Assembly (NCBI GenBank): GCA_009746045.1
Contig: RPFO01000213.1
Location: forward strand, 12,100,563 to 12,164,562
Source: Mesostigma viride
Lineage: Eukaryota; Streptophyta; Mesostigmatophyceae; Mesostigmatales; Mesostigmataceae
Reading direction: 5' to 3'
DNA: 64,000 bases
Part shown: positions 30,059 to 54,000 of the stretch, one piece after another
Layout: the number at the start of each line of letters is the position of its first letter
How positions within the stretch are numbered: the stretch's first letter is position 1
Notes under the pieces: generated by a model
What the model was told of the DNA's origin: nothing
Database searches by the model: none
What the model saw: the letters and a program-made list of their open reading frames with translations, nothing else
Translations under genes and position numbers: made by a program

Positions 30059-33000
30059 TTATTTTCCTCTTGCCCTGCCACCAGGGCCACCCCTTCCTCT
30101 CCCTCGTCCCCCACCCCCACCCCCACGCCCCCCACCTCCTCGCCCTCCCCCTCCTCGTCCTCCCCGGCCACCCCCACCCCTTCCCCTCCCTCGTCCCCCA
30201 AACCCACCACGCCCTTCCCTCTCCCCAGGGAGGTTGAGTGGCCCCGTGCTCCGCCTCATCCTCTTATCCCCCCCACGCCGCCTGTCCCCGCCCTCATCGC
30301 CACTGTCATCGTCATATCCGCCCCGCCCTGGCTTGCTCGAAGATGAGGGGACGAAAGAAAACTCGCGTGCACCACCCACGCGGCGAGATGCCCCCCCCGC
30401 GGCCCCATCCTCTTGTTCTGCCAGCATCCGCTCCTCCAGGGACAGCGCGTTGCGGGCGGCCAGGGACTTGTCCTCTCGGAAAGCGGCCGCGTGCTCCTCG
30501 CCGCGCACCTCGTACAGCCTGGCGGTGGGGGGTAGGTGGGGTGACGGGGATGGGGGGCAACCAGGCAAGCACTTGCACAAGGGGGAACTTAGGAATCGCA
30601 AGCATGCAGCGTGGGATAATCCTAGAAGGCATGCAGACCCTTCATTAGGCAGATGTGTAATCAATACATGCCGCACGAGTGGTGTAGAGACAAGCACAAG
30701 TTGTTACATAAATTAGCTCAGGCACGTGGGATGAAAGCAGGCACGCAAGACCCCCTTGAACCTGCCCAACGGAACATTGCGTAGCTTCTAACCCGATAAA
30801 CGTTGTCAGCAACTACTGGATATTGATGAGACACAGGGCACACTAGCCTGGGGATGCCTTGCGATTAGTACCTGCTGAGCAGCACGGACGCCAAGCACAG
30901 CAATGAGGACCAATAGCAACCAGACACACCACACCCGCACATTAACAGCAACCCAGCCACCCACCTGGGCCCGCTAGACCGTTTCTTCGTCTTCTCCTTG
31001 GCCACCTTTGGCCGACGCCGATCGCCCCTCTCGCTCTCATCACTGTCATCAGCATCCTCATAGGGGCTGTCATCGCCACCCCCCTCTTCGTCCTCATCAC
31101 CATCCTCCTCGTCACTCGCGGCCTCAAAGTGCTCCGCGATGAGGCTCGCCTTGAGCTTCTTCTGTTGCTCCGAGACGCCGCTCGAGTGGAGCAGCTTGAA
31201 CTCGTCCGACTCAGGGTCGATCTCAAAGTCCTGCAGTGGGTACGAGGGTGATAGGTTGGGGAGGGTACACGATGCAGGGTTTAGGGTATGCAATGTAGGG
31301 GTTGATCTCAAAGTCCTGCAGCGGGTAAGAGGGTGAGGTTGGGGAGGGTACACGATGCAGGGTTTAGGGTATGCAATGTAGGGGCTGATCTCAAAGTCCT
31401 GGAGTGTGTGGACAGGTTCCGGGTTCAGTAGGGCCTCGTAGGGTTCATCATTAAGGGGTGCTGATCTGCAAGTCCTGGTATGTGTAGACGGGATTAACGG
31501 TTCAGCAGGGTTAGGTGAAGGGGTCGATCAAAGTCCTGCGTTTTGGGTGGAGAGTGACGGGTTTGGATTGGTGGGGGCCAACGGTGTATGGTGTAGGGTT
31601 TAGGGTTTGCAAGGTATGGATCAATCCCAAAGTCCTGAATGTAGGGTGTAGGGTGTAAAAAATAGGGTGAAATAGGAAGGGATCAATCGCAAAGTCCTGC
31701 GGCGGGTGAAGGAATTATCGGTGTAGATGACGGGTATAAGGTGTAGGGTTTAGTATTAGTGATGAAGGGGTGGATCTCAATGACTTGGAGTAGATTTTGC
31801 CTTATCACTTGACAATGGCAGCACTCCACACCTTGTTGGTGAACAGGAAGCGATACCTCGTCAGGCAAAACAAACGCTAGCACCAGGCATACCCTGAATG
31901 ATGCAAGGCCATGCCAGCTTCCCCCACCTCGTTGGTGAGCACGCAGCCGAAGCAGTATCCTACCTTGGCAATGCTGCAAGTCAGGCAACGGTTCGCGTTC
32001 CTCACCTTGTTCATGAACCTGGAACCTGACTCCATGACGTGCAATCAAACATCTGTGCTAGCGATGACATCATGATGCTGTAAGTCAAATCATGCACCCG
32101 CCGCCCACCTTGTTGGTGAACATGGAGCCAAAGCGCGGGTCGTGCAGCATGCGCTGCGCCACGTCCTTCGCCTTCTCCGTCTTCTTGTCGCCGCCTTGCT
32201 TCGTCTCCAGGTCAAGGAACTTGGCGGCCACCTCCTTGTTGACCTTGGGCAGGCGCTTCTTGACCTGCCAGGGGGGGGGAGGCAGGGAAGATGAGTCAGC
32301 AAGGTGATGCGGTGATGAGTCAGCAGCCCACAGTGGATTCGCTCATTAACAGATCAGCCTTAAAAAAGTCAAGTCGCGGTCCGAATCGGACGCCTGCTCG
32401 CACTGCAGGCGTGGTATGATCAATCCAAGCTTTTGATATCTCGACGAATCAATCCTATTAAAACAGCCTCAACAGAAAGGAAAATGAATATGCGGAATAG
32501 GCCAGCTAGGCCTGGCTGCGAGAGGGATCAAACAAGTTAGCCATCGCTGCCTACTCCCAGAAAAGCGGAGTCTGCACAATCAGTGGCAAAGTGGCTTTCC
32601 ATAAACACAAGATCCCTTCTAAAATGGTGAGAAGATCCTCTTGCTGCGGTGCAGAGGGAGCCCTTTCCCTCCCTTCTAAAATGGTGAGAAGATCCTCTTG
32701 CTGCGGTGCAGAGGGAGCCCTTTCCCTCCCTTCTAAAATGGTGAGAAGATCCTCTTGCTGCGGTGCAGAGACAACCCTTTCCCTCCCTTCTAAAATGGTG
32801 AGAAGATCCTCTTGCTGCGGTGCAGAGACAACCCTTTCCCTCCCTTCTAAAATGGTGAGAAGATCCTCTTGCTGCGGTGCAGAGACAACCCTTTCCCTCC
32901 CTTCTAAAATGGTGAGAACATCCTCTTGCTGCGGTGCAGAGACAACCCTTTCCCTCCCTTCTAAAATGGTGAGAAGATCCTCTTGCTGCGGTGCAGAGGG

Positions 33001-36000
33001 AGCCCTTTCCCTCCCTTCTAAAATGGTGAGAACATCCTCTTGCTGCGGTGCAGAGACAACCCTTTCCCTCCCTTCTAAAATGGTGAGAAGATCCTCTTGC
33101 TGCGGTGCAGAGACAACCCTTTCCCTCCCTTCTAAAATGGTGAGAACATCCTCTTGCTGCGGTGCAGAGACAACCCTTTCCCTCCCTTCTAAAATGGTGA
33201 GAACATCCTCTTGCTGCGGTGCAGAGAGCCCTTTCCCTCCCTTCTAAAATGGTGAGAACATCCTCTTGCTGCGGTGCAGAGACAACCCTTTCCCTCCCTT
33301 CTAAAATGGTGAGAACATCCTCTTGCTGCGGTGCAGAGACAACCCTTTCCCTCCCTTCTAAAATGGTGAGAACATCCTCTTGCTGCGGTGCAGAGACAGC
33401 CCTTTCCCTCCCTTCTAAAATGGTGAGAACATCCTCTTGCTGCGGTGCAGAGACAACCCTTTCCCTCCCTTCTAAAATGGTGAGAACATCCTCTTGCTGC
33501 GGTGCAGAGACAACCCTTTCCCTCCCTTCTAAAATGGTGAGAACATCCTCTTGCTGCGGTGCAGAGACAACCCTTTCCCTCCCTTCTAAAATGGTGAGAA
33601 CATCCTCTTGCTGCGGTGCAGAGACAGCCCTTTCCCTCCCTTCTAAAATGGTGAGAACATCCTCTTGCTGCGGTGCAGAGACAGCCCTTTCCCTCCCTTC
33701 TAAAATGGTGAGAACATCCTCTTGCTGCGGTGCAGAGACAGCCCTTTCCCTCCCTTCTAAAATGGTGAGAACATCCTCTTGCTGCGGTGCAGAGACAGCC
33801 CTTTCCCTCCCTTCTAAAATGGTGAGAACATCCTCTTGCTGCGGTGCAGAGACAGCCCTTTCCCTCCCTTCTAAAATGGTGAGAACATCCTCTTGCTGCG
33901 GTGCAGAGAGCCCTTTCCCTCCCTTCTAAAATGGTGAGAACATCCTCTTGCTGCGGTGCAGAGACAACCCTTTCCCTCCCTTCTAAAATGGTGAGAACAT
34001 CCTCTTGCTGCGGTGCAGAGACAACCCTTTCCCTCCCTTCTAAAATGGTGAGAACATCCTCTTGCTGCGGTGCAGAGACAACCCTTTCCCTCCCTTCTAA
34101 AATGGTGAGAACATCCTCTTGCTGCGGTGCAGAGACAGCCCTTTCCCTCCCTTCTAAAATGGTGAGAACATCCTCTTGCTGCGGTGCAGAGACAGCCCTT
34201 TCCCTCCCTTCTAAAATGGTGAGAACATCCTCTTGCTGCGGTGCAGAGAGCCCTTTCCCTCCCTTCTAAAATGGTGAGAACATCCTCTTGCTGCGGTGCA
34301 GAGACAACCCTTTCCCTCCCTTCTAAAATGGTGAGAACATCCTCTTGCTGCGGTGCAGAGACAGCCCTTTCCCTCCCTTCTAAAATGGTGAGAACATCCT
34401 CTTGCTGCGGTGCAGAGACAGCCCTTTCCCTCCCTTCTAAAATGGTGAGAACATCCTCTTGCTGCGGTGCAGAGACAACCCTTTCCCTCCCTTCTAAAAT
34501 GGTGAGAACATCCTCTTGCTGCGGTGCAGAGACAGCCCTTTCCCTCCCTTCTAAAATGGTGAGAACATCCTCTTGCTGCGGTGCAGAGACAACCCTTTCC
34601 CTCCCTTCTAAAATGGTGAGAACATCCTCTTGCTGCGGTGCAGAGACAACCCTTTCCCTCCCTTCTAAAATGGTGAGAACATCCTCTTGCTGCGGTGCAG
34701 AGACAGCCCTTTCCCTCCCTTCTAAAATGGTGAGAACATCCTCTTGCTGCGGTGCAGAGAGCCCTTTCCCTCCCTTCTAAAATGGTGAGAACATCCTCTT
34801 GCTGCGGTGCAGAGACAACCCTTTCCCTCCCTTCTAAAATGGTGAGAACATCCTCTTGCTGCGGTGCAGAGACAGCCCTTTCCCTCCCTTCTAAAATGGT
34901 GAGAACATCCTCTTGCTGCGGTGCAGAGACAGCCCTTTCCCTCCCTTCTAAAATGGTGAGAACATCCTCTTGCTGCGGTGCAGAGACAGCCCTTTCCCTC
35001 CCTTCTAAAATGGTGAGAACATCCTCTTGCTGCGGTGCAGAGACAGCCCTTTCCCTCCCTTCTAAAATGGTGAGAACATCCTCTTGCTGCGGTGCAGAGA
35101 CAGCCCTTTCCCTCCCTTCTAAAATGGTGAGAACATCCTCTTGCTGCGGTGCAGAGACAGCCCTTTCCCTCCCTTCTAAAATGGTGAGAACATCCTCTTG
35201 CTGCGGTGCAGAGACAACCCTTTCCCTCCCTTCTAAAATGGTGAGAACATCCTCTTGCTGCGGTGCAGAGACAGCCCTTTCCCTCCCTTCTAAAATGGTG
35301 AGAACATCCTCTTGCTGCGGTGCAGAGACAGCCCTTTCCCTCCCTTCTAAAATGGTGAGAACATCCTCTTGCTGCGGTGCAGAGAGCCCTTTCCCTCCCT
35401 TCTAAAATGGTGAGAACATCCTCTTGCTGCGGTGCAGAGACAGCCCTTTCCCTCCCTTCTAAAATGGTGAGAACATCCTCTTGCTGCGGTGCAGAGACAG
35501 CCCTTTCCCTCCCTTCTAAAATGGTGAGAACATCCTCTTGCTGCGGTGCAGAGACAGCCCTTTCCCTCCCTTCTAAAATGGTGAGAACATCCTCTTGCTG
35601 CGGTGCAGAGACAGCCCTTTCCCTCCCTTCTAAAATGGTGAGAACATCCTCTTGCTGCGGTGCAGAGACAGCCCTTTCCCTCCCTTCTAAAATGGTGAGA
35701 ACATCCTCTTGCTGCGGTGCAGAGACACCCTTTCCCTCCCTTCTAAAATGGTGAGAACATCCTCTTGCTGCGGTGCAGAGACAGCCCTTTCCCTCCCTTC
35801 TAAAATGGTGAGAACATCCTCTTGCTGCGGTGCAGAGACAACCCTTTCCCTCCCTTCTAAAATGGTGAGAACATCCTCTTGCTGCGGTGCAGAGAGCCCT
35901 TTCCCTCCCTTCTAAAATGGTGAGAACATCCTCTTGCTGCGGTGCAGAGACAACCCTTTCCCTCCCTTCTAAAATGGTGAGAACATCCTCTTGCTGCGGT

Positions 36001-39000
36001 GCAGAGACAGCCCTTTCCCTCCCTTCTAAAATGGTGAGAACATCCTCTTGCTGCGGTGCAGAGACAGCCCTTTCCCTCCCTTCTAAAATGGTGAGAACAT
36101 CCTCTTGCTGCGGTGCAGAGACAGCCCTTTCCCTCCCTTCTAAAATGGTGAGAACATCCTCTTGCTGCGGTGCAGAGACAGCCCTTTCCCTCCCTTCTAA
36201 AATGGTGAGAACATCCTCTTGCTGCGGTGCAGAGACAGCCCTTTCCCTCCCTTCTAAAATGGTGAGAACATCCTCTTGCTGCGGTGCAGAGACAGCCCTT
36301 TCCCTCCCTTCTAAAATGGTGAGAACATCCTCTTGCTGCGGTGCAGAGACAGCCCTTTCCCTCCCTTCTAAAATGGTGAGAACATCCTCTTGCTGCGGTG
36401 CAGAGACAGCCCTTTCCCTCCCTTCTAAAATGGTGAGAACATCCTCTTGCTGCGGTGCAGAGACAGCCCTTTCCCTCCCTTCTAAAATGGTGAGAACATC
36501 CTCTTGCTGCGGTGCAGAGACAGCCCTTTCCCTCCCTTCTAAAATGGTGAGAACATCCTCTTGCTGCGGTGCAGAGACAGCCCTTTCCCTCCCTTCTAAA
36601 ATGGTGAGAACATCCTCTTGCTGCGGTGCAGAGACAGCCCTTTCCCTCCCTTCTAAAATGGTGAGAACATCCTCTTGCTGCGGTGCAGAGACAGCCCTTT
36701 CCCTCCCTTCTAAAATGGTGAGAACATCCTCTTGCTGCGGTGCAGAGACAGCCCTTTCCCTCCCTTCTAAAATGGTGAGAACATCCTCTTGCTGCGGTGC
36801 AGAGACAGCCCTTTCCCTCCCTTCTAAAATGGTGAGAACATCCTCTTGCTGCGGTGCAGAGACAGCCCTTTCCCTCCCTTCTAAAATGGTGAGAACATCC
36901 TCTTGCTGCGGTGCAGAGACAGCCCTTTCCCTCCCTTCTAAAATGGTGAGAACATCCTCTTGCTGCGGTGCAGAGACAGCCCTTTCCCTCCCTTCTAAAA
37001 TGGTGAGAACATCCTCTTGCTGCGGTGCAGAGACAGCCCTTTCCCTCCCTTCTAAAATGGTGAGAACATCCTCTTGCTGCGGTGCAGAGACAGCCCTTTC
37101 CCTCCCTTCTAAAATGGTGAGAACATCCTCTTGCTGCGGTGCAGAGACAGCCCTTTCCCTCCCTTCTAAAATGGTGAGAACATCCTCTTGCTGCGGTGCA
37201 GAGACAGCCCTTTCCCTCCCTTCTAAAATGGTGAGAACATCCTCTTGCTGCGGTGCAGAGACAGCCCTTTCCCTCCCTTCTAAAATGGTGAGAACATCCT
37301 CTTGCTGCGGTGCAGAGACAGCCCTTTCCCTCCCTTCTAAAATGGTGAGAACATCCTCTTGCTGCGGTGCAGAGACAGCCCTTTCCCTCCCTTCTAAAAT
37401 GGTGAGAACATCCTCTTGCTGCGGTGCAGAGACAGCCCTTTCCCTCCCTTCTAAAATGGTGAGAACATCCTCTTGCTGCGGTGCAGAGACAGCCCTTTCC
37501 CTCCCTTCTAAAATGGTGAGAACATCCTCTTGCTGCGGTGCAGAGACAGCCCTTTCCCTCCCTTCTAAAATGGTGAGAACATCCTCTTGCTGCGGTGCAG
37601 AGACAACCCTTTCCCTCCCTTCTAAAATGGTGAGAACATCCTCTTGCTGCGGTGCAGAGACAGCCCTTTCCCTCCCTTCTAAAATGGTGAGAACATCCTC
37701 TTGCTGCGGTGCAGAGACAGCCCTTTCCCTCCCTTCTAAAATGGTGAGAACATCCTCTTGCTGCGGTGCAGAGACAGCCCTTTCCCTCCCTTCTAAAATG
37801 GTGAGAACATCCTCTTGCTGCGGTGCAGAGACAGCCCTTTCCCTCCCTTCTAAAATGGTGAGAACATCCTCTTGCTGCGGTGCAGAGACAGCCCTTTCCC
37901 TCCCTTCTAAAATGGTGAGAACATCCTCTTGCTGCGGTGCAGAGACAGCCCTTTCCCTCCCTTCTAAAATGGTGAGAACATCCTCTTGCTGCGGTGCAGA
38001 GACAGCCCTTTCCCTCCCTTCTAAAATGGTGAGAACATCCTCTTGCTGCGGTGCAGAGACAGCCCTTTCCCTCCCTTCTAAAATGGTGAGAACATCCTCT
38101 TGCTGCGGTGCAGAGACAGCCCTTTCCCTCCCTTCTAAAATGGTGAGAACATCCTCTTGCTGCGGTGCAGAGACAGCCCTTTCCCTCCCTTCTAAAATGG
38201 TGAGAACATCCTCTTGCTGCGGTGCAGAGACAGCCCTTTCCCTCCCTTCTAAAATGGTGAGAACATCCTCTTGCTGCGGTGCAGAGACAGCCCTTTCCCT
38301 CCCTTCTAAAATGGTGAGAACATCCTCTTGCTGCGGTGCAGAGACAGCCCTTTCCCTCCCTTCTAAAATGGTGAGAACATCCTCTTGCTGCGGTGCAGAG
38401 ACAGCCCTTTCCCTCCCTTCTAAAATGGTGAGAACATCCTCTTGCTGCGGTGCAGAGACAGCCCTTTCCCTCCCTTCTAAAATGGTGAGAACATCCTCTT
38501 GCTGCGGTGCAGAGACAGCCCTTTCCCTCCCTTCTAAAATGGTGAGAACATCCTCTTGCTGCGGTGCAGAGACAGCCCTTTCCCTCCCTTCTAAAATGGT
38601 GAGAACATCCTCTTGCTGCGGTGCAGAGACAGCCCTTTCCCTCCCTTCTAAAATGGTGAGAACATCCTCTTGCTGCGGTGCAGAGACAGCCCTTTCCCTC
38701 CCTTCTAAAATGGTGAGAACATCCTCTTGCTGCGGTGCAGAGACAGCCCTTTCCCTCCCTTCTAAAATGGTGAGAACATCCTCTTGCTGCGGTGCAGAGA
38801 CAGCCCTTTCCCTCCCTTCTAAAATGGTGAGAACATCCTCTTGCTGCGGTGCAGAGACAGCCCTTTCCCTCCCTTCTAAAATGGTGAGAACATCCTCTTG
38901 CTGCGGTGCAGAGACAGCCCTTTCCCTCCCTTCTAAAATGGTGAGAACATCCTCTTGCTGCGGTGCAGAGACAGCCCTTTCCCTCCCTTCTAAAATGGTG

Positions 39001-42000
39001 AGAACATCCTCTTGCTGCGGTGCAGAGACAGCCCTTTCCCTCCCTTCTAAAATGGTGAGAACATCCTCTTGCTGCGGTGCAGAGACAGCCCTTTCCCTCC
39101 CTTCTAAAATGGTGAGAACATCCTCTTGCTGCGGTGCAGAGACAGCCCTTTCCCTCCCTTCTAAAATGGTGAGAACATCCTCTTGCTGCGGTGCAGAGAC
39201 AGCCCTTTCCCTCCCTTCTAAAATGGTGAGAACATCCTCTTGCTGCGGTGCAGAGACAGCCCTTTCCCTCCCTTCTAAAATGGTGAGAACATCCTCTTGC
39301 TGCGGTGCAGAGACAGCCCTTTCCCTCCCTTCTAAAATGGTGAGAACATCCTCTTGCTGCGGTGCAGAGACAGCCCTTTCCCTCCCTTCTAAAATGGTGA
39401 GAACATCCTCTTGCTGCGGTGCAGAGACAGCCCTTTCCCTCCCTTCTAAAATGGTGAGAACATCCTCTTGCTGCGGTGCAGAGACAGCCCTTTCCCTCCC
39501 TTCTAAAATGGTGAGAACATCCTCTTGCTGCGGTGCAGAGACAGCCCTTTCCCTCCCTTCTAAAATGGTGAGAACATCCTCTTGCTGCGGTGCAGAGACA
39601 GCCCTTTCCCTCCCTTCTAAAATGGTGAGAACATCCTCTTGCTGCGGTGCAGAGACAGCCCTTTCCCTCCCTTCTAAAATGGTGAGAACATCCTCTTGCT
39701 GCGGTGCAGAGACAGCCCTTTCCCTCCCTTCTAAAATGGTGAGAACATCCTCTTGCTGCGGTGCAGAGACAGCCCTTTCCCTCCCTTCTAAAATGGTGAG
39801 AACATCCTCTTGCTGCGGTGCAGAGACAGCCCTTTCCCTCCCTTCTAAAATGGTGAGAACATCCTCTTGCTGCGGTGCAGAGACAGCCCTTTCCCTCCCT
39901 TCTAAAATGGTGAGAACATCCTCTTGCTGCGGTGCAGAGACAGCCCTTTCCCTCCCTTCTAAAATGGTGAGAACATCCTCTTGCTGCGGTGCAGAGACAG
40001 CCCTTTCCCTCCCTTCTAAAATGGTGAGAACATCCTCTTGCTGCGGTGCAGAGACAGCCCTTTCCCTCCCTTCTAAAATGGTGAGAACATCCTCTTGCTG
40101 CGGTGCAGAGACAGCCCTTTCCCTCCCTTCTAAAATGGTGAGAACATCCTCTTGCTGCGGTGCAGAGACAGCCCTTTCCCTCCCTTCTAAAATGGTGAGA
40201 ACATCCTCTTGCTGCGGTGCAGAGACAGCCCTTTCCCTCCCTTCTAAAATGGTGAGAACATCCTCTTGCTGCGGTGCAGAGACAGCCCTTTCCCTCCCTT
40301 CTAAAATGGTGAGAACATCCTCTTGCTGCGGTGCAGAGACAGCCCTTTCCCTCCCTTCTAAAATGGTGAGAACATCCTCTTGCTGCGGTGCAGAGACAGC
40401 CCTTTCCCTCCCTTCTAAAATGGTGAGAACATCCTCTTGCTGCGGTGCAGAGACAGCCCTTTCCCTCCCTTCTAAAATGGTGAGAACATCCTCTTGCTGC
40501 GGTGCAGAGACAGCCCTTTCCCTCCCTTCTAAAATGGTGAGAACATCCTCTTGCTGCGGTGCAGAGACAGCCCTTTCCCTCCCTTCTAAAATGGTGAGAA
40601 CATCCTCTTGCTGCGGTGCAGAGACAGCCCTTTCCCTCCCTTCTAAAATGGTGAGAACATCCTCTTGCTGCGGTGCAGAGACAGCCCTTTCCCTCCCTTC
40701 TAAAATGGTGAGAACATCCTCTTGCTGCGGTGCAGAGACAGCCCTTTCCCTCCCTTCTAAAATGGTGAGAACATCCTCTTGCTGCGGTGCAGAGACAGCC
40801 CTTTCCCTCCCTTCTAAAATGGTGAGAACATCCTCTTGCTGCGGTGCAGAGACAGCCCTTTCCCTCCCTTCTAAAATGGTGAGAACATCCTCTTGCTGCG
40901 GTGCAGAGACAGCCCTTTCCCTCCCTTCTAAAATGGTGAGAACATCCTCTTGCTGCGGTGCAGAGACAGCCCTTTCCCTCCCTTCTAAAATGGTGAGAAC
41001 ATCCTCTTGCTGCGGTGCAGAGACAGCCCTTTCCCTCCCTTCTAAAATGGTGAGAACATCCTCTTGCTGCGGTGCAGAGACAGCCCTTTCCCTCCCTTCT
41101 AAAATGGTGAGAACATCCTCTTGCTGCGGTGCAGAGACAGCCCTTTCCCTCCCTTCTAAAATGGTGAGAACATCCTCTTGCTGCGGTGCAGAGACAGCCC
41201 TTTCCCTCCCTTCTAAAATGGTGAGAACATCCTCTTGCTGCGGTGCAGAGACAGCCCTTTCCCTCCCTTCTAAAATGGTGAGAACATCCTCTTGCTGCGG
41301 TGCAGAGACAGCCCTTTCCCTCCCTTCTAAAATGGTGAGAACATCCTCTTGCTGCGGTGCAGAGACAGCCCTTTCCCTCCCTTCTAAAATGGTGAGAACA
41401 TCCTCTTGCTGCGGTGCAGAGACAGCCCTTTCCCTCCCTTCTAAAATGGTGAGAACATCCTCTTGCTGCGGTGCAGAGACAGCCCTTTCCCTCCCTTCTA
41501 AAATGGTGAGAACATCCTCTTGCTGCGGTGCAGAGACAGCCCTTTCCCTCCCTTCTAAAATGGTGAGAACATCCTCTTGCTGCGGTGCAGAGACAGCCCT
41601 TTCCCTCCCTTCTAAAATGGTGAGAACATCCTCTTGCTGCGGTGCAGAGACAGCCCTTTCCCTCCCTTCTAAAATGGTGAGAACATCCTCTTGCTGCGGT
41701 GCAGAGACAGCCCTTTCCCTCCCTTCTAAAATGGTGAGAACATCCTCTTGCTGCGGTGCAGAGACAGCCCTTTCCCTCCCTTCTAAAATGGTGAGAACAT
41801 CCTCTTGCTGCGGTGCAGAGACAGCCCTTTCCCTCCCTTCTAAAATGGTGAGAACATCCTCTTGCTGCGGTGCAGAGACAGCCCTTTCCCTCCCTTCTAA
41901 AATGGTGAGAACATCCTCTTGCTGCGGTGCAGAGACAGCCCTTTCCCTCCCTTCTAAAATGGTGAGAACATCCTCTTGCTGCGGTGCAGAGACAGCCCTT

Positions 42001-45000
42001 TCCCTCCCTTCTAAAATGGTGAGAACATCCTCTTGCTGCGGTGCAGAGACAGCCCTTTCCCTCCCTTCTAAAATGGTGAGAACATCCTCTTGCTGCGGTG
42101 CAGAGACAGCCCTTTCCCTCCCTTCTAAAATGGTGAGAACATCCTCTTGCTGCGGTGCAGAGACAGCCCTTTCCCTCCCTTCTAAAATGGTGAGAACATC
42201 CTCTTGCTGCGGTGCAGAGACAGCCCTTTCCCTCCCTTCTAAAATGGTGAGAACATCCTCTTGCTGCGGTGCAGAGACAGCCCTTTCCCTCCCTTCTAAA
42301 ATGGTGAGAACATCCTCTTGCTGCGGTGCAGAGACAGCCCTTTCCCTCCCTTCTAAAATGGTGAGAACATCCTCTTGCTGCGGTGCAGAGACAGCCCTTT
42401 CCCTCCCTTCTAAAATGGTGAGAACATCCTCTTGCTGCGGTGCAGAGACAGCCCTTTCCCTCCCTTCTAAAATGGTGAGAACATCCTCTTGCTGCGGTGC
42501 AGAGACAGCCCTTTCCCTCCCTTCTAAAATGGTGAGAACATCCTCTTGCTGCGGTGCAGAGACAGCCCTTTCCCTCCCTTCTAAAATGGTGAGAACATCC
42601 TCTTGCTGCGGTGCAGAGACAGCCCTTTCCCTCCCTTCTAAAATGGTGAGAACATCCTCTTGCTGCGGTGCAGAGACAGCCCTTTCCCTCCCTTCTAAAA
42701 TGGTGAGAACATCCTCTTGCTGCGGTGCAGAGACAGCCCTTTCCCTCCCTTCTAAAATGGTGAGAACATCCTCTTGCTGCGGTGCAGAGACAGCCCTTTC
42801 CCTCCCTTCTAAAATGGTGAGAACATCCTCTTGCTGCGGTGCAGAGACAGCCCTTTCCCTCCCTTCTAAAATGGTGAGAACATCCTCTTGCTGCGGTGCA
42901 GAGACAGCCCTTTCCCTCCCTTCTAAAATGGTGAGAACATCCTCTTGCTGCGGTGCAGAGACAGCCCTTTCCCTCCCTTCTAAAATGGTGAGAACATCCT
43001 CTTGCTGCGGTGCAGAGACAGCCCTTTCCCTCCCTTCTAAAATGGTGAGAACATCCTCTTGCTGCGGTGCAGAGACAGCCCTTTCCCTCCCTTCTAAAAT
43101 GGTGAGAACATCCTCTTGCTGCGGTGCAGAGACAGCCCTTTCCCTCCCTTCTAAAATGGTGAGAACATCCTCTTGCTGCGGTGCAGAGACAGCCCTTTCC
43201 CTCCCTTCTAAAATGGTGAGAACATCCTCTTGCTGCGGTGCAGAGACAGCCCTTTCCCTCCCTTCTAAAATGGTGAGAACATCCTCTTGCTGCGGTGCAG
43301 AGACAGCCCTTTCCCTCCCTTCTAAAATGGTGAGAACATCCTCTTGCTGCGGTGCAGAGACAGCCCTTTCCCTCCCTTCTAAAATGGTGAGAACATCCTC
43401 TTGCTGCGGTGCAGAGACAGCCCTTTCCCTCCCTTCTAAAATGGTGAGAACATCCTCTTGCTGCGGTGCAGAGACAGCCCTTTCCCTCCCTTCTAAAATG
43501 GTGAGAACATCCTCTTGCTGCGGTGCAGAGACAGCCCTTTCCCTCCCTTCTAAAATGGTGAGAACATCCTCTTGCTGCGGTGCAGAGACAGCCCTTTCCC
43601 TCCCTTCTAAAATGGTGAGAACATCCTCTTGCTGCGGTGCAGAGACAGCCCTTTCCCTCCCTTCTAAAATGGTGAGAACATCCTCTTGCTGCGGTGCAGA
43701 GACAGCCCTTTCCCTCCCTTCTAAAATGGTGAGAACATCCTCTTGCTGCGGTGCAGAGACAGCCCTTTCCCTCCCTTCTAAAATGGTGAGAACATCCTCT
43801 TGCTGCGGTGCAGAGACAGCCCTTTCCCTCCCTTCTAAAATGGTGAGAACATCCTCTTGCTGCGGTGCAGAGACAGCCCTTTCCCTCCCTTCTAAAATGG
43901 TGAGAACATCCTCTTGCTGCGGTGCAGAGACAGCCCTTTCCCTCCCTTCTAAAATGGTGAGAACATCCTCTTGCTGCGGTGCAGAGACAGCCCTTTCCCT
44001 CCCTTCTAAAATGGTGAGAACATCCTCTTGCTGCGGTGCAGAGACAGCCCTTTCCCTCCCTTCTAAAATGGTGAGAACATCCTCTTGCTGCGGTGCAGAG
44101 ACAGCCCTTTCCCTCCCTTCTAAAATGGTGAGAACATCCTCTTGCTGCGGTGCAGAGACAGCCCTTTCCCTCCCTTCTAAAATGGTGAGAACATCCTCTT
44201 GCTGCGGTGCAGAGACAGCCCTTTCCCTCCCTTCTAAAATGGTGAGAACATCCTCTTGCTGCGGTGCAGAGACAGCCCTTTCCCTCCCTTCTAAAATGGT
44301 GAGAACATCCTCTTGCTGCGGTGCAGAGACAGCCCTTTCCCTCCCTTCTAAAATGGTGAGAACATCCTCTTGCTGCGGTGCAGAGACAGCCCTTTCCCTC
44401 CCTTCTAAAATGGTGAGAACATCCTCTTGCTGCGGTGCAGAGACAGCCCTTTCCCTCCCTTCTAAAATGGTGAGAACATCCTCTTGCTGCGGTGCAGAGA
44501 CAGCCCTTTCCCTCCCTTCTAAAATGGTGAGAACATCCTCTTGCTGCGGTGCAGAGACAGCCCTTTCCCTCCCTTCTAAAATGGTGAGAACATCCTCTTG
44601 CTGCGGTGCAGAGACAGCCCTTTCCCTCCCTTCTAAAATGGTGAGAACATCCTCTTGCTGCGGTGCAGAGACAGCCCTTTCCCTCCCTTCTAAAATGGTG
44701 AGAACATCCTCTTGCTGCGGTGCAGAGACAGCCCTTTCCCTCCCTTCTAAAATGGTGAGAACATCCTCTTGCTGCGGTGCAGAGACAGCCCTTTCCCTCC
44801 CTTCTAAAATGGTGAGAACATCCTCTTGCTGCGGTGCAGAGACAGCCCTTTCCCTCCCTTCTAAAATGGTGAGAACATCCTCTTGCTGCGGTGCAGAGAC
44901 AGCCCTTTCCCTCCCTTCTAAAATGGTGAGAACATCCTCTTGCTGCGGTGCAGAGACAGCCCTTTCCCTCCCTTCTAAAATGGTGAGAACATCCTCTTGC

Positions 45001-48000
45001 TGCGGTGCAGAGACAGCCCTTTCCCTCCCTTCTAAAATGGTGAGAACATCCTCTTGCTGCGGTGCAGAGACAGCCCTTTCCCTCCCTTCTAAAATGGTGA
45101 GAACATCCTCTTGCTGCGGTGCAGAGACAGCCCTTTCCCTCCCTTCTAAAATGGTGAGAACATCCTCTTGCTGCGGTGCAGAGACAGCCCTTTCCCTCCC
45201 TTCTAAAATGGTGAGAACATCCTCTTGCTGCGGTGCAGAGACAGCCCTTTCCCTCCCTTCTAAAATGGTGAGAACATCCTCTTGCTGCGGTGCAGAGACA
45301 GCCCTTTCCCTCCCTTCTAAAATGGTGAGAACATCCTCTTGCTGCGGTGCAGAGACAGCCCTTTCCCTCCCTTCTAAAATGGTGAGAACATCCTCTTGCT
45401 GCGGTGCAGAGACAGCCCTTTCCCTCCCTTCTAAAATGGTGAGAACATCCTCTTGCTGCGGTGCAGAGACAGCCCTTTCCCTCCCTTCTAAAATGGTGAG
45501 AACATCCTCTTGCTGCGGTGCAGAGACAGCCCTTTCCCTCCCTTCTAAAATGGTGAGAACATCCTCTTGCTGCGGTGCAGAGACAGCCCTTTCCCTCCCT
45601 TCTAAAATGGTGAGAACATCCTCTTGCTGCGGTGCAGAGACAGCCCTTTCCCTCCCTTCTAAAATGGTGAGAACATCCTCTTGCTGCGGTGCAGAGACAG
45701 CCCTTTCCCTCCCTTCTAAAATGGTGAGAACATCCTCTTGCTGCGGTGCAGAGACAGCCCTTTCCCTCCCTTCTAAAATGGTGAGAACATCCTCTTGCTG
45801 CGGTGCAGAGACAGCCCTTTCCCTCCCTTCTAAAATGGTGAGAACATCCTCTTGCTGCGGTGCAGAGACAGCCCTTTCCCTCCCTTCTAAAATGGTGAGA
45901 ACATCCTCTTGCTGCGGTGCAGAGACAGCCCTTTCCCTCCCTTCTAAAATGGTGAGAACATCCTCTTGCTGCGGTGCAGAGACAGCCCTTTCCCTCCCTT
46001 CTAAAATGGTGAGAACATCCTCTTGCTGCGGTGCAGAGACAGCCCTTTCCCTCCCTTCTAAAATGGTGAGAACATCCTCTTGCTGCGGTGCAGAGACAGC
46101 CCTTTCCCTCCCTTCTAAAATGGTGAGAACATCCTCTTGCTGCGGTGCAGAGACAGCCCTTTCCCTCCCTTCTAAAATGGTGAGAACATCCTCTTGCTGC
46201 GGTGCAGAGACAGCCCTTTCCCTCCCTTCTAAAATGGTGAGAACATCCTCTTGCTGCGGTGCAGAGACAGCCCTTTCCCTCCCTTCTAAAATGGTGAGAA
46301 CATCCTCTTGCTGCGGTGCAGAGACAGCCCTTTCCCTCCCTTCTAAAATGGTGAGAACATCCTCTTGCTGCGGTGCAGAGACAGCCCTTTCCCTCCCTTC
46401 TAAAATGGTGAGAACATCCTCTTGCTGCGGTGCAGAGACAGCCCTTTCCCTCCCTTCTAAAATGGTGAGAACATCCTCTTGCTGCGGTGCAGAGACAGCC
46501 CTTTCCCTCCCTTCTAAAATGGTGAGAACATCCTCTTGCTGCGGTGCAGAGACAGCCCTTTCCCTCCCTTCTAAAATGGTGAGAACATCCTCTTGCTGCG
46601 GTGCAGAGACAGCCCTTTCCCTCCCTTCTAAAATGGTGAGAACATCCTCTTGCTGCGGTGCAGAGACAGCCCTTTCCCTCCCTTCTAAAATGGTGAGAAC
46701 ATCCTCTTGCTGCGGTGCAGAGACAGCCCTTTCCCTCCCTTCTAAAATGGTGAGAACATCCTCTTGCTGCGGTGCAGAGACAGCCCTTTCCCTCCCTTCT
46801 AAAATGGTGAGAACATCCTCTTGCTGCGGTGCAGAGACAGCCCTTTCCCTCCCTTCTAAAATGGTGAGAACATCCTCTTGCTGCGGTGCAGAGACAGCCC
46901 TTTCCCTCCCTTCTAAAATGGTGAGAACATCCTCTTGCTGCGGTGCAGAGACAGCCCTTTCCCTCCCTTCTAAAATGGTGAGAACATCCTCTTGCTGCGG
47001 TGCAGAGACAGCCCTTTCCCTCCCTTCTAAAATGGTGAGAACATCCTCTTGCTGCGGTGCAGAGACAGCCCTTTCCCTCCCTTCTAAAATGGTGAGAACA
47101 TCCTCTTGCTGCGGTGCAGAGACAGCCCTTTCCCTCCCTTCTAAAATGGTGAGAACATCCTCTTGCTGCGGTGCAGAGACAGCCCTTTCCCTCCCTTCTA
47201 AAATGGTGAGAACATCCTCTTGCTGCGGTGCAGAGACAGCCCTTTCCCTCCCTTCTAAAATGGTGAGAACATCCTCTTGCTGCGGTGCAGAGACAGCCCT
47301 TTCCCTCCCTTCTAAAATGGTGAGAACATCCTCTTGCTGCGGTGCAGAGACAGCCCTTTCCCTCCCTTCTAAAATGGTGAGAACATCCTCTTGCTGCGGT
47401 GCAGAGAGCCCTTTCCCTCCCTTCTAAAATGGTGAGAACATCCTCTTGCTGCGGTGCAGAGACAGCCCTTTCCCTCCCTTCTAAAATGGTGAGAACATCC
47501 TCTTGCTGCGGTGCAGAGACAGCCCTTTCCCTCCCTTCTAAAATGGTGAGAACATCCTCTTGCTGCGGTGCAGAGACAGCCCTTTCCCTCCCTTCTAAAA
47601 TGGTGAGAACATCCTCTTGCTGCGGTGCAGAGACAGCCCTTTCCCTCCCTTCTAAAATGGTGAGAACATCCTCTTGCTGCGGTGCAGAGACAGCCCTTTC
47701 CCTCCCTTCTAAAATGGTGAGAACATCCTCTTGCTGCGGTGCAGAGACAGCCCTTTCCCTCCCTTCTAAAATGGTGAGAACATCCTCTTGCTGCGGTGCA
47801 GAGACAGCCCTTTCCCTCCCTTCTAAAATGGTGAGAACATCCTCTTGCTGCGGTGCAGAGACAGCCCTTTCCCTCCCTTCTAAAATGGTGAGAACATCCT
47901 CTTGCTGCGGTGCAGAGACAGCCCTTTCCCTCCCTTCTAAAATGGTGAGAACATCCTCTTGCTGCGGTGCAGAGACAGCCCTTTCCCTCCCTTCTAAAAT

Positions 48001-51000
48001 GGTGAGAACATCCTCTTGCTGCGGTGCAGAGACAGCCCTTTCCCTCCCTTCTAAAATGGTGAGAACATCCTCTTGCTGCGGTGCAGAGACAGCCCTTTCC
48101 CTCCCTTCTAAAATGGTGAGAACATCCTCTTGCTGCGGTGCAGAGACAGCCCTTTCCCTCCCTTCTAAAATGGTGAGAACATCCTCTTGCTGCGGTGCAG
48201 AGACAGCCCTTTCCCTCCCTTCTAAAATGGTGAGAACATCCTCTTGCTGCGGTGCAGAGACAGCCCTTTCCCTCCCTTCTAAAATGGTGAGAACATCCTC
48301 TTGCTGCGGTGCAGAGACAGCCCTTTCCCTCCCTTCTAAAATGGTGAGAACATCCTCTTGCTGCGGTGCAGAGACAGCCCTTTCCCTCCCTTCTAAAATG
48401 GTGAGAACATCCTCTTGCTGCGGTGCAGAGACAGCCCTTTCCCTCCCTTCTAAAATGGTGAGAACATCCTCTTGCTGCGGTGCAGAGACAGCCCTTTCCC
48501 TCCCTTCTAAAATGGTGAGAACATCCTCTTGCTGCGGTGCAGAGACAGCCCTTTCCCTCCCTTCTAAAATGGTGAGAACATCCTCTTGCTGCGGTGCAGA
48601 GACAGCCCTTTCCCTCCCTTCTAAAATGGTGAGAACATCCTCTTGCTGCGGTGCAGAGACAGCCCTTTCCCTCCCTTCTAAAATGGTGAGAACATCCTCT
48701 TGCTGCGGTGCAGAGACAGCCCTTTCCCTCCCTTCTAAAATGGTGAGAACATCCTCTTGCTGCGGTGCAGAGACAGCCCTTTCCCTCCCTTCTAAAATGG
48801 TGAGAACATCCTCTTGCTGCGGTGCAGAGACAGCCCTTTCCCTCCCTTCTAAAATGGTGAGAACATCCTCTTGCTGCGGTGCAGAGACAGCCCTTTCCCT
48901 CCCTTCTAAAATGGTGAGAACATCCTCTTGCTGCGGTGCAGAGACAGCCCTTTCCCTCCCTTCTAAAATGGTGAGAACATCCTCTTGCTGCGGTGCAGAG
49001 ACAGCCCTTTCCCTCCCTTCTAAAATGGTGAGAACATCCTCTTGCTGCGGTGCAGAGACAACCCTTTCCCTCCCTTCTAAAATGGTGAGAACATCCTCTT
49101 GCTGCGGTGCAGAGACAGCCCTTTCCCTCCCTTCTAAAATGGTGAGAACATCCTCTTGCTGCGGTGCAGAGACAGCCCTTTCCCTCCCTTCTAAAATGGT
49201 GAGAACATCCTCTTGCTGCGGTGCAGAGACAGCCCTTTCCCTCCCTTCTAAAATGGTGAGAACATCCTCTTGCTGCGGTGCAGAGACAACCCTTTCCCTC
49301 CCTTCTAAAATGGTGAGAACATCCTCTTGCTGCGGTGCAGAGACAGCCCTTTCCCTCCCTTCTAAAATGGTGAGAACATCCTCTTGCTGCGGTGCAGAGA
49401 CAGCCCTTTCCCTCCCTTCTAAAATGGTGAGAACATCCTCTTGCTGCGGTGCAGAGACAGCCCTTTCCCTCCCTTCTAAAATGGTGAGAACATCCTCTTG
49501 CTGCGGTGCAGAGACAGCCCTTTCCCTCCCTTCTAAAATGGTGAGAACATCCTCTTGCTGCGGTGCAGAGACAGCCCTTTCCCTCCCTTCTAAAATGGTG
49601 AGAACATCCTCTTGCTGCGGTGCAGAGACAGCCCTTTCCCTCCCTTCTAAAATGGTGAGAACATCCTCTTGCTGCGGTGCAGAGACAGCCCTTTCCCTCC
49701 CTTCTAAAATGGTGAGAACATCCTCTTGCTGCGGTGCAGAGACAGCCCTTTCCCTCCCTTCTAAAATGGTGAGAACATCCTCTTGCTGCGGTGCAGAGAC
49801 AGCCCTTTCCCTCCCTTCTAAAATGGTGAGAACATCCTCTTGCTGCGGTGCAGAGACAACCCTTTCCCTCCCTTCTAAAATGGTGAGAACATCCTCTTGC
49901 TGCGGTGCAGAGAGCCCTTTCCCTCCCTTCTAAAATGGTGAGAACATCCTCTTGCTGCGGTGCAGAGACAGCCCTTTCCCTCCCTTCTAAAATGGTGAGA
50001 ACATCCTCTTGCTGCGGTGCAGAGGGAGCCCTTTCCCTCCCTTCTAAAATGGTGAGAACATCCTCTTGCTGCGGTGCAGAGACAGCCCTTTCCCTCCCTT
50101 CTAAAATGGTGAGAAGATCCTCTTGCTGCGGTGCAGAGACAGCCCTTTCCCTCGGTAAATGAACCCGGCACAAACATACCACGATGCGTACTGCGTGCTC
50201 GATCCGATCATATCCAAGCAACAAAATCCTTTCACCCACCCTCCTCCAAAGTAAATAACACGGCTCCTAGATAACGTATGGTGTTGGGCTATGCCCTCCC
50301 TTACTCGAGCCGCTTAGACCAACATCAGTAAGCCATGCAACATTCTGCTCATTCAACTTAAACACTGTGTTCATAATCAACGTACCGCGATACGTGTGGC
50401 CCTACCCTTCTCAAGCCTCTCACACCCAAGCTTCAAAACTATCTAACCCTCCTCTGCCGGCTCTGCGATAGTAACCTGGCTCATGAGTGGCGTACCGTGA
50501 TGCGGGTCGCCCGCTCCTTCTCGAGCCTCTCCTGCACCTTGGCGTCGCGGTACCGCTCGTACGCGAACGGGTCCACCAGCCCGACCGCCTTCTTGTACAA
50601 CCGCGCGTCCAGGAAGAAGCCGTGCATGTACGCGCGCAGCAGGTCGGTCCCGATCAGGTGCGACAGGGCCAGCCGGTCCAGCTCGTCGCGCGTGACAAAC
50701 TTGAAGTCCTCGTAGACCGCGCTCGCCTTCTCCTCCTCCAGCTCCTCCTGTATAGGAAAAGTGGTGATGCAGAAGGTGGCGATGCATCCACATCCAGTTT
50801 TAGTTGAGACGTACAGTTGTCGCTCGCCTTTTCATCTTCAAGCTCCTTCTGGGATACGGAAAATGAGAAAAGTTTGGCAGGAAATGTGTGATAGAAAGGT
50901 TTGACAGGACAAGTGTGATAGAAAGCTCTTGATAGGGAAGCCACAAACGTCCAGGTACACGCGTCAGACGTTCTGTTCCTGGTGCTCGGCTTTTCTCCCT

Positions 51001-54000
51001 AAATCTCTTCCAATAACCAGGTATGAGGGTGGGAGCATGCCACATAACCAATGGCGCCGGCTGTGGTGTTCTCCAGCCATGAGCACCCACGCAGCGCTAG
51101 TATCAAATGATAGTCTTAAACGATAGTACTAAATGATAGTACCAATCGATAGTATCATTTCCCGCCCTTTTCTTTTCCCGCACACCCTCCCTGCGTGTTT
51201 TGGGGTTAAGGCTAGCCTTTGACAAGCAATAAGTGTTCCCATGAGCATCGGCGGCCTGCGTTTTGTATGTACTCAACTAATTGTTTTAATAAAGAGTCTG
51301 CTTACCCTGGAGTTCCACGGTGAATAGAATGATAGCATCAAACGATAGCATCAAATGATAGCATCCACCGATAGTACCAACAAGGACAACACAAAGGGCT
51401 ATCAACCCTATCACCAGCACCCACCGTGAGCGCTAGTATCCACCGATAGTACCAACAATGACAACACCAAGGGCTATTACCCTTATCACCAGCACCCACC
51501 GATAGTACCAACAATGACAACACCAAGGGCTATTACCCTTATCACCAGCACCCACCGATAGTACCAACAATGACAACACCAAGGGCTATTACCCTTATCA
51601 CCAGCACCCACCGATAGTACCAACCATGACAACACCAAGTGCTATTATATTAACCCTATCACCAGCACCCACCGTGAGGTTCTCCAGGAACGAGCACCAG
51701 CGGGGCGCGGGCCCCAGTGACGGGATGAAGTAGCTCTGCAGGCGCGGCGCCTCCATCGCCAGCAGGATCAGCCCCGACCGCTTCTCCACGTGCATCGAGC
51801 AGATGAAGCCCTCCTCTGGCTCCACGCTCGCAAAGTTGCTCCCCTGGTGGGTGGGGAGGAGGAAGGGGCAGGGAAAACGCAAGGGTATGGGTGTGGAGCG
51901 GGTAAGGAAAGACAGTGGTGATTATGGTGGCGGTGGTGGAAGTAGTAAATCCACCCACTCAGTCCAGCTCCAATACAGCTTTCAGCACGCATGGAGATGC
52001 TACAGGCTATCTGGAGATGCTACAGGCTATATGGAGATGCTACAGGCTATAAGACGCATGGCACAGTCGGCGCTGAACTAGACTAAAACCCATGGTGTCC
52101 GGGTTCCACATCGGCATGCAACACTGTACAGGCTACAGCCACAGCCGGCGCCGAACTAGCGCTCAATATGTCCGGCTTTGACATGGGAGATGCGAAGGAA
52201 TGCACAACTGAACTAACACATGGCCGACAGGCGTTTGCTGTTACGGAACACGTTCAGGTTCCCAAAGCGGCATGCAACACTGTTACTGCAGATAGCAAGA
52301 CGCATGTCACCAAATAACACCCACCGTGTCCGGGCTCCAAATCTTGACGATCTTCGAGTCGGCCGAGATGACCTTGCACGACCCGGCAGTCCCGTGCGCG
52401 TCGTGGAACGCAATGCGCTTGATGGGGTAGCCGTACATGTGGTCCTTCACCATCACCGGTTCGGACGAGCGCAGGTCGTACAGGAGCACCTGGGGGGCCC
52501 AGGATAAAAGAGGGGGGGGAGGGGGGAGTTGCAATTGACCGGGCCGTATAGAGTTCAAAGCAGGACTTTGCTCGATTGCGAACAACCCGAACGAAAAGAC
52601 GTTTGAAAAGATGGATACAAGGGGGTGGGGGAGGTGGGTTTTGCAACCGACCGGGACGTGTAGAGTAAAAGCAGAACATTGCTAGGTCGCAAACAGCTCT
52701 GCACAAGAGCACTTTCAACACGATGGCGCACCAGTAAAGGAGCATATCCCCTTTTATCTTTAACGTGACGTAGTTAGCAGTTAGGTTAGCGTTAGGACAC
52801 TAGGTCTTTGGCATCTGATTCCCTCTGCTGGCGAGGCCTAGCAGTAGGCTGTACTCCTCTCCCATATGCAGCCATGCCTGTAAGCATAGGCGTACCAATA
52901 GAAACACCTCCCGCCAGGATTCCCTTCGATATTTCCCTCACCTTCCCCCCCTTGGTCCCCACGGCCATGCGGAAGCCGTCCATGTCGTCAAAGGTGATCG
53001 CGGTGACCTCCTGCGGGCCGTGAGTATGGAAGGGCAGGGGGACAGCATCGCAGATACAACAGCTTCCATAGACATGAGGGATGTGAGGAGGGAGGGACGA
53101 AGCAGGGGTATCCCCTCAAGGGACCAAGAAGAAATCAGCATAAAACACCAGCTCCCCCCGCCACACATACATCGCGATGCAAGTAAAATAGAATCTTGGT
53201 CTTCCTTTCCATATCTACAGCTAGGCCGTTGTTCTTTGTCTGCCATCTTGGGTGCGCAAAGCTATCCTTGCATACATGAAGCAGCGCACCCAAGGGATGT
53301 ACTACCCACCACATGCTGCATAACGAGAGACGCGAGAGGTACGAGTGACAAGCACCATGGTCAACATACGCGATACTAGAATGACAAGTTGCTGGTCAAG
53401 GTCATATTGCAGTACTCAGTGCGACAGGCAGCATGTAACACAGATGGCGCACCTCGTTAAGCTTGCTGCACAGTCCAACACACACGCACACATACACACA
53501 CATACACACAAACGCACACACACACACACATACACACACATACACACAAACGCACACACACACATACACACACGCACACACACGCAAACATACACACATA
53601 CACAAACGCACACGCACACAAACACACACATCGCAGTCCATGATGCGCCAAGCAGCTCGCTGAAAAGTCACTAAACACACACCTCGCTCGGGGTGCCGTC
53701 GCCCACAAACCCTCCTTCCTCCGCGGCCGCCACCGCTCCAGCGGAGATGCGGCCGACCGACTTTCTTTGTCGCGGGTCAAAACACTCGACGGCGCCATCC
53801 TCACCACCGGCTGCGACCAGGCCATGCACGGGGCTGGTGGGGTGCAAATTGAAGCCCGGGCACCGGGTAGCATTGCCATGTATGGTCAGTAAGGGGCTTT
53901 GGGGACGCAAGCCAAAGATGGGGAATTATGCAGCATGGTATGATAAGCTGTCGCGTTGTGGGCAGCTTGCACATTGGCTTTGAATGCGCAATGCTCATGA

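Follow-up and report, generated by a model that had tools for sequence, protein, structure and literature searches.

Large tandem arrays inside introns have been described before. In human CACNA1C, an intronic 30-bp variable-number tandem repeat (VNTR; 'TRACT') measures 3 to more than 30 kb, and its growth is explained in the excerpted text of that study by perfect-tract expansion (PMC13131567). On a smaller scale, tandem duplications arising from DNA break repair are hinted at in humans and plants (PMC8355091, excerpt). Here we analyze a 64-kb stretch of contig RPFO01000213.1 (positions 12,100,563 to 12,164,562) from Mesostigma viride, a green alga whose lineage is among the earliest on the side leading to land plants; the whole stretch, hereafter the window, contains no N letters. 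Our subject is a 57-bp minisatellite that fills intron 11 of NOL10, a ribosome-assembly gene. As repeats of this known kind go, the array is very large.

Results

A 57-bp minisatellite fills intron 11 of NOL10

A domain search found that a minus-strand gene in the window encodes the NOL10 second domain, NUC153 and the NOL10 propeller. The gene and array are laid out as follows:

30059..58751, minus strand: whole NOL10 gene, 14 exons and 751 codons plus stop, located by an assembly-wide protein search and a deposited-protein match
50496..50747, minus strand: exon 11, supported by domain matches, a GT-AG model, a deposited protein and the homolog alignment
32265..50495, minus strand: intron 11, 18,231 bp, with donor ACG/GTACGC and acceptor GGCAG/GTC (the slash marks the splice site)
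32109..32264, minus strand: exon 12, with the NUC153 match starting in its 3' part
32613..50153, no strand assigned: 57-bp minisatellite, 308.0 copies at 99% matches, with commonest sense-strand unit GGGAAAGGGCTGTCTCTGCACCGCAGCAAGAGGATGTTCTCACCATTTTAGAAGGGA

A preliminary description of the window had named the gene as NOL10, paired exons 11 and 12 in matching phase, and placed the array within the intron between them, all of which our gene model bears out. A GT donor follows exon 11 (50496), an AG acceptor precedes exon 12 (32264), and the phase is kept. The best protein match, deposited protein P0001, is identical to the translation of our 14-exon model over the first 599 of its 631 residues, a span that includes the exon 11/12 join. 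Ten of 11 aligned homologs cross the join gap-free, and the remaining one (P0067) shows a single-residue gap immediately beyond it. At the other end of the protein, residues 600-631 of P0001 run into intron 13, where our own model splices to exon 14; the last exon of our model (30518-30059), a glycine/arginine-rich tail, is missing from P0001.

Searching the assembly with P0001 gave 15 scored candidates and 13 matches, all 13 of them in the NOL10 locus, and found exons 11 and 12 on one contig, together rather than at separate loci. No second or processed NOL10 copy was found in the whole assembly. We give almost no credence to the idea that exon 11 is not joined in cis to exon 12, with transcripts stopping before the array or the join being an assembly artefact: the parts of the gene were found at one locus only, the deposited protein spans the join, and the join is conserved in homologs. 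Because the protein is conserved over the join and NOL10 was found at this locus only, the array would be transcribed in the pre-mRNA and removed with intron 11.

The array takes up 17,541 of the 18,231 bp of intron 11 (96.2%), in agreement with the 308 copies and 96% of an 18.2-kb intron reported earlier. Among 307 delimited units, 267 are identical and only eight unit types occur in all, so that 'nearly uniform' is a fair account of the assembly; 298 of these units are 57 bp long, eight are 55 bp and one is 56 bp. Variants are unevenly placed: seven fall among the 49 units that come first along the gene, the following 171 form a variant-free block of 9.7 kb, and the final 87 contain 33. Two unit types that contain GATCTT (D and E) adjoin exon 12, and one GATCTT unit (F) lies at the opposite end. 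On the sense strand, the array is 31% G and 21% C. With head-to-tail 57-bp units, in a class of about 10-100 bp, lying within an intron according to the gene model, the protein and the homologs, the array is an intronic minisatellite. We rejected a coding array, or tandem-repeat protein gene, since the frame is broken by nine of the 307 units, whose lengths are not divisible by three.

The other 12 NOL10 introns measure 245-1,344 bp, and 36 introns taken from three genes have a median length of 817 bp. Intron 11 is about 16 times the published mean M. viride intron of 1,142 bp (PMC6947507, excerpt). The earlier label 'unusual' therefore holds for this length and for the 171-unit identical block, but not for large intronic arrays as such, given the CACNA1C example (PMC13131567, excerpt). 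In splice-site scoring, the intron 11 donor is weak (fifth lowest of the 36 introns) and the acceptor is strong (rank 33 of 36 from the bottom).

The array occupies one locus

We searched the 439.9-Mb assembly of 2,243 contigs with a 40-base part of the unit, allowing up to three mismatches. This genome-wide search, which the preliminary description had proposed, returned 308 matches, and the window alone accounts for 308. No match was found in the whole assembly on the other strand or with a reversed control, and none in 100 shuffles, indicating that the array did not arise by chance. Since the assembly-wide matches equal the window's own, the array is a one-locus minisatellite and not a dispersed satellite. 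In satellite DNA the unit would recur across many loci or build megabase arrays, and with introner elements similar copies would sit in many introns; in this assembly the unit is found at one locus only, and the heterochromatic-satellite framing of the preliminary description fits poorly. Viral contigs gave no exact match to the 57-bp unit. In 20 other 10-kb samples of the contig, the longest arrays were 2.2, 1.6 and 1.4 kb, so that arrays of this size look uncommon in the genome, judging from a small sample.

Array length and uniformity are provisional

The published assembly of M. viride strain NIES-296 comprises 441.8 Mb in 2,363 scaffolds, and was built with Canu from reads with an N50 of 11.2 kb and then polished with short reads in Pilon (PMC6947507, excerpt). 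The assembly analyzed here is likely the same one. Because of this resemblance, to an assembly with an 11.2-kb read N50 and short-read polishing, we regard the length and uniformity of the array as provisional. It is a serious possibility, though we lean away from it, that a real array was assembled with a copy number off by more than a fifth, and that the 171 identical units were homogenised by polishing with multi-mapped short reads. The two assemblies are of similar size, the read N50 is shorter than the 17.5-kb array while the identical block spans 9.7 kb, and short-read polishing can make repeats alike. Against such a partial assembly product, an Nt.BspQI optical map was used for conflict detection in the published work (PMC6947507, excerpt). 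By the enzyme's recognition sequence, the window has no Nt.BspQI site between 19126 and 58578, and this single 39.5-kb label interval would expose a gross size error.

No role for the array was detected

The preliminary description suggested that the array could affect splicing kinetics, expression or chromatin, for which we found no support. The array has no unusual RNA fold (fold z-score 0.37), no four-tract G-quadruplex motif and no Rfam family match. Scored for splice sites, the unit is poor by one model, while a second ranks it within intronic sequence at the 68th percentile for donors and the 92nd for acceptors; the first model's suggestion of an unusual lack of splice sites in the unit was not borne out by the second and was dropped. 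We consider it unlikely that the array acts in cis, with transcribed G-rich repeats slowing transcription or splicing, or recruiting chromatin, and so tuning NOL10 expression. Such action would be in line with the excess of G over C on the sense strand, with the lower fibroblast and testis expression associated with long alleles of the CACNA1C array (PMC13131567, excerpt), and with the dedicated RNA-binding proteins needed by Drosophila genes whose introns are filled with satellites (PMC6508621, excerpt). The ordinary fold and the missing quadruplex and Rfam matches argue against it, and the disagreement between the two models makes the splice-site scoring uninformative.

Introns of three genes carry copies of their exon edges

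Near several NOL10 splice sites, we noticed decayed copies of the adjoining exon edge within the intron. We aligned the 36 terminal exon bases at each edge to the adjacent intron and compared the scores with those of 1,000 random coding 36-mers from three genes, using the far edges of the same exons as controls. The sample comprised 36 introns: 13 from NOL10 (array left out), 12 from a UPF1 model and 11 from a P4-ATPase gene within 16 kb. UPF1 (L022, L018, L021) matches deposited model P0121, exactly so over the UPF1 model, and the P4-ATPase (L023, L017, L024) matches deposited model P0241, with agreement at all 11 junctions examined; both models, like P0001, bear the source code Mesvir1. These two genes were picked from sampled stretches of the same contig, making this a non-random gene sample from one species.

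At p<0.01, 13 of 36 donor-side and six of 36 acceptor-side edges had a copy (19/72), compared to 0/72 far-edge controls (Fisher p ~1e-6), and the copies fall in 15 of the 36 introns, in all three genes. NOL10, where the pattern was first noticed, contributes 11 of 26 edges; UPF1 and P4-ATPase taken by themselves give 8/46 versus 0/46 controls (Fisher p 0.006). Reverse-complemented edges scored 0/72 at p<0.01 and 5/72 at p<0.05. Scores of at least 14 were reached by 12/36 donor edges in their own introns versus 4/1,260 in other introns, and by 6/36 versus 4/1,260 for acceptor edges. The splice consensus therefore does not account for the copies. Introns that carry copies show no significant increase in length (p 0.08).

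Examples in NOL10 include the following:

50386..50409, minus strand: the end of exon 11 in a decayed copy, with GTACGT after it, 110 bp inside intron 11
31832..32029, minus strand: the end of exon 12 in three decayed copies within intron 12, each followed by GTG (last bases 32006, 31928 and 31832)
31300..31702, minus strand: ladder in intron 12 made of copies of the start of exon 13, with AG before each (seen by eye; three copies scored)
51440..51647, minus strand: 56-bp repeat of 3.7 copies, close to the donor of exon 10 and within intron 10, its units containing donor-like GGTGGGTGCTGG (repeat scan and by eye)

With a threshold of at least 17 of 24 matching exon bases, we listed 21 copies at 17 edges, the nearest copy lying 85-118 bp from the true site at 11 of the 17. 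GT/GC or AG is kept in 18 of the 21, a possible excess whose p value is 0.014 or 0.07 depending on the decay assumed. NOL10 intron 6 has a GC donor (window 55177), and its nearest exon-edge copy also has GC (GCAAGT). Mean identity of the copies is 0.78 over the 24 selected exon bases and 0.49 at the next six; on the intron side it is 0.90 at the dinucleotide, 0.62 at +3 to +6, 0.36 at +7 to +12, 0.39 at +13 to +20, and 0.25 beyond +20, against a background of 0.27. The intron side is alike in six of 21 copies at p<0.05 and in two at p<0.01. This likeness is lower than expected had a plain tandem duplication of about 100 bp decayed equally on both sides, and as a full account of the copies such duplication is only partly supported. 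Faster intron decay, exon-to-copy conversion, insertion of other DNA or selection on the copy could each be the reason.

To look for introner or other mobile elements between exon and copy, we compared the spacers beside the edge copies (11 spacers, 55 pairs in two orientations). They matched one another in 5 of 110 comparisons at p<=0.01, where about one is expected; these are short matches judged by a lenient single-base shuffle. Across 272 kb, short repeats not chosen for exon edges showed an excess of spacings at 15-45 and 85-105 bp over neighbouring spacings, the second mode being post hoc. In repeats spaced 80-125 bp in this sample, the matching stretch covers 0.34 of the spacing at the median. 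The two spacing modes point to a general duplication process.

Could the 57-bp unit itself derive from a duplicated edge of exon 11 or exon 12, as in other introns? Intron 11 holds an exon-edge copy of its own, and the repeat in intron 10 includes that intron's donor. Compared with exon 11, exon 12 and the intron flanks, the unit is no closer than shuffled units (p 0.13 to 0.94); one of seven comparisons, made against the entire part of the gene lying 3' of the array, yielded p 0.04. An exon-edge origin is thus disfavoured and seems to us very improbable, though a source edge may have decayed past recognition. Because the 57-bp unit lacks similarity to its own exon edges, the array and the edge copies would be linked only through sharing a duplication-prone genome.

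Our literature search on duplicated splice sites, border duplications, and intron expansion or gain returned papers on neighbouring topics (intron gain, tandem splice sites), and at the level of search listings, which are no proof of being unpublished, we did not recognise the edge-copy pattern.

Elsewhere in the window, an uninterrupted (TTC)90 tract with 100% match lies at 18693-18963, and a 440-codon open frame on the plus strand (15160-16479) matches the DDE_Tnp_1_7 transposase family. At 1.5, 5.0 and 7.5 Mb on the same contig (L003, L010 and L015), we saw dense long intronless open frames, including one class-V aminotransferase; judged by eye, these stretches resemble inserted large-virus DNA.

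Discussion

From the array, its single locus, the gene structure and the layout of its variants, we infer a passive intronic minisatellite that most probably grew by expansion of a perfect tract and would have no function. One 57-bp stretch within intron 11 would have been duplicated in tandem, and the array would then have grown mainly by added copies of one unit type, leaving variant units towards its ends. It would be transcribed within the NOL10 pre-mRNA and discarded with the intron, with no role of its own.

Three points weigh against this account. The variant-free block could stem from consensus polishing, and not from expansion. Transcription and splicing of the array, which the preliminary description said 'must' occur, are deduced from the genome, through the conserved protein and the single gene locus. 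Finally, the asymmetry between G and C on the sense strand would be compatible with R-loop effects.

For the edge copies, we tentatively propose, with somewhat less than even confidence, that Mesostigma introns undergo recurrent rebuilding from their edges. Small duplications would copy an exon edge along with its splice site, commonly about 100 bp into the intron, yielding a ladder of decoy donors and acceptors for the spliceosome to bypass. Splice dinucleotides are better kept in the copies than the intron around them, and some copies may be maintained as alternative or decoy sites. The NOL10 intron, with its edge copy, the donor-bearing 56-bp repeat in the neighbouring intron and the 17.5-kb array, would be an extreme case in a duplication-prone genome. 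If the copies are general, introns grow by duplications that cross exon borders, and they offer many matched true and decoy splice sites for reading splice-site choice. The array, for its part, is a natural test of splicing across an 18-kb near-perfect repeat in a ribosome-assembly gene.

Several known systems share features with this locus. The potato RNA-dependent RNA polymerase gene reportedly gained an intron by tandem genomic duplication. As in Mesostigma, duplication is tied there to intron structure; in the potato gene a new intron arises, whereas the Mesostigma exon-edge copies sit inside introns. The break-repair duplications are a plausible source of both the first 57-bp duplicate and the edge copies, but the excerpted work covers single small duplications and NOL10 carries an array (PMC8355091). 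Like NOL10, the Drosophila Y genes kl-3 and kl-5 have tandem repeats within a transcribed intron; theirs are megabase introns of simple satellites, one shared by two Y loops, compared to 18 kb, one locus and a 57-bp unit in NOL10 (PMC6508621, excerpt). The CACNA1C VNTR resembles the NOL10 array in being intronic, confined to one locus and made of kilobases of near-identical short units, with growth by perfect tracts likewise proposed for both (PMC13131567, excerpt). The human array has been typed in populations alongside expression data, while that of NOL10 is known from one assembly. Its unit is 30 bp rather than 57 bp, and the longest perfect tract is 26 units in the shortest long CACNA1C alleles versus 171 in the NOL10 assembly (PMC13131567, excerpt).

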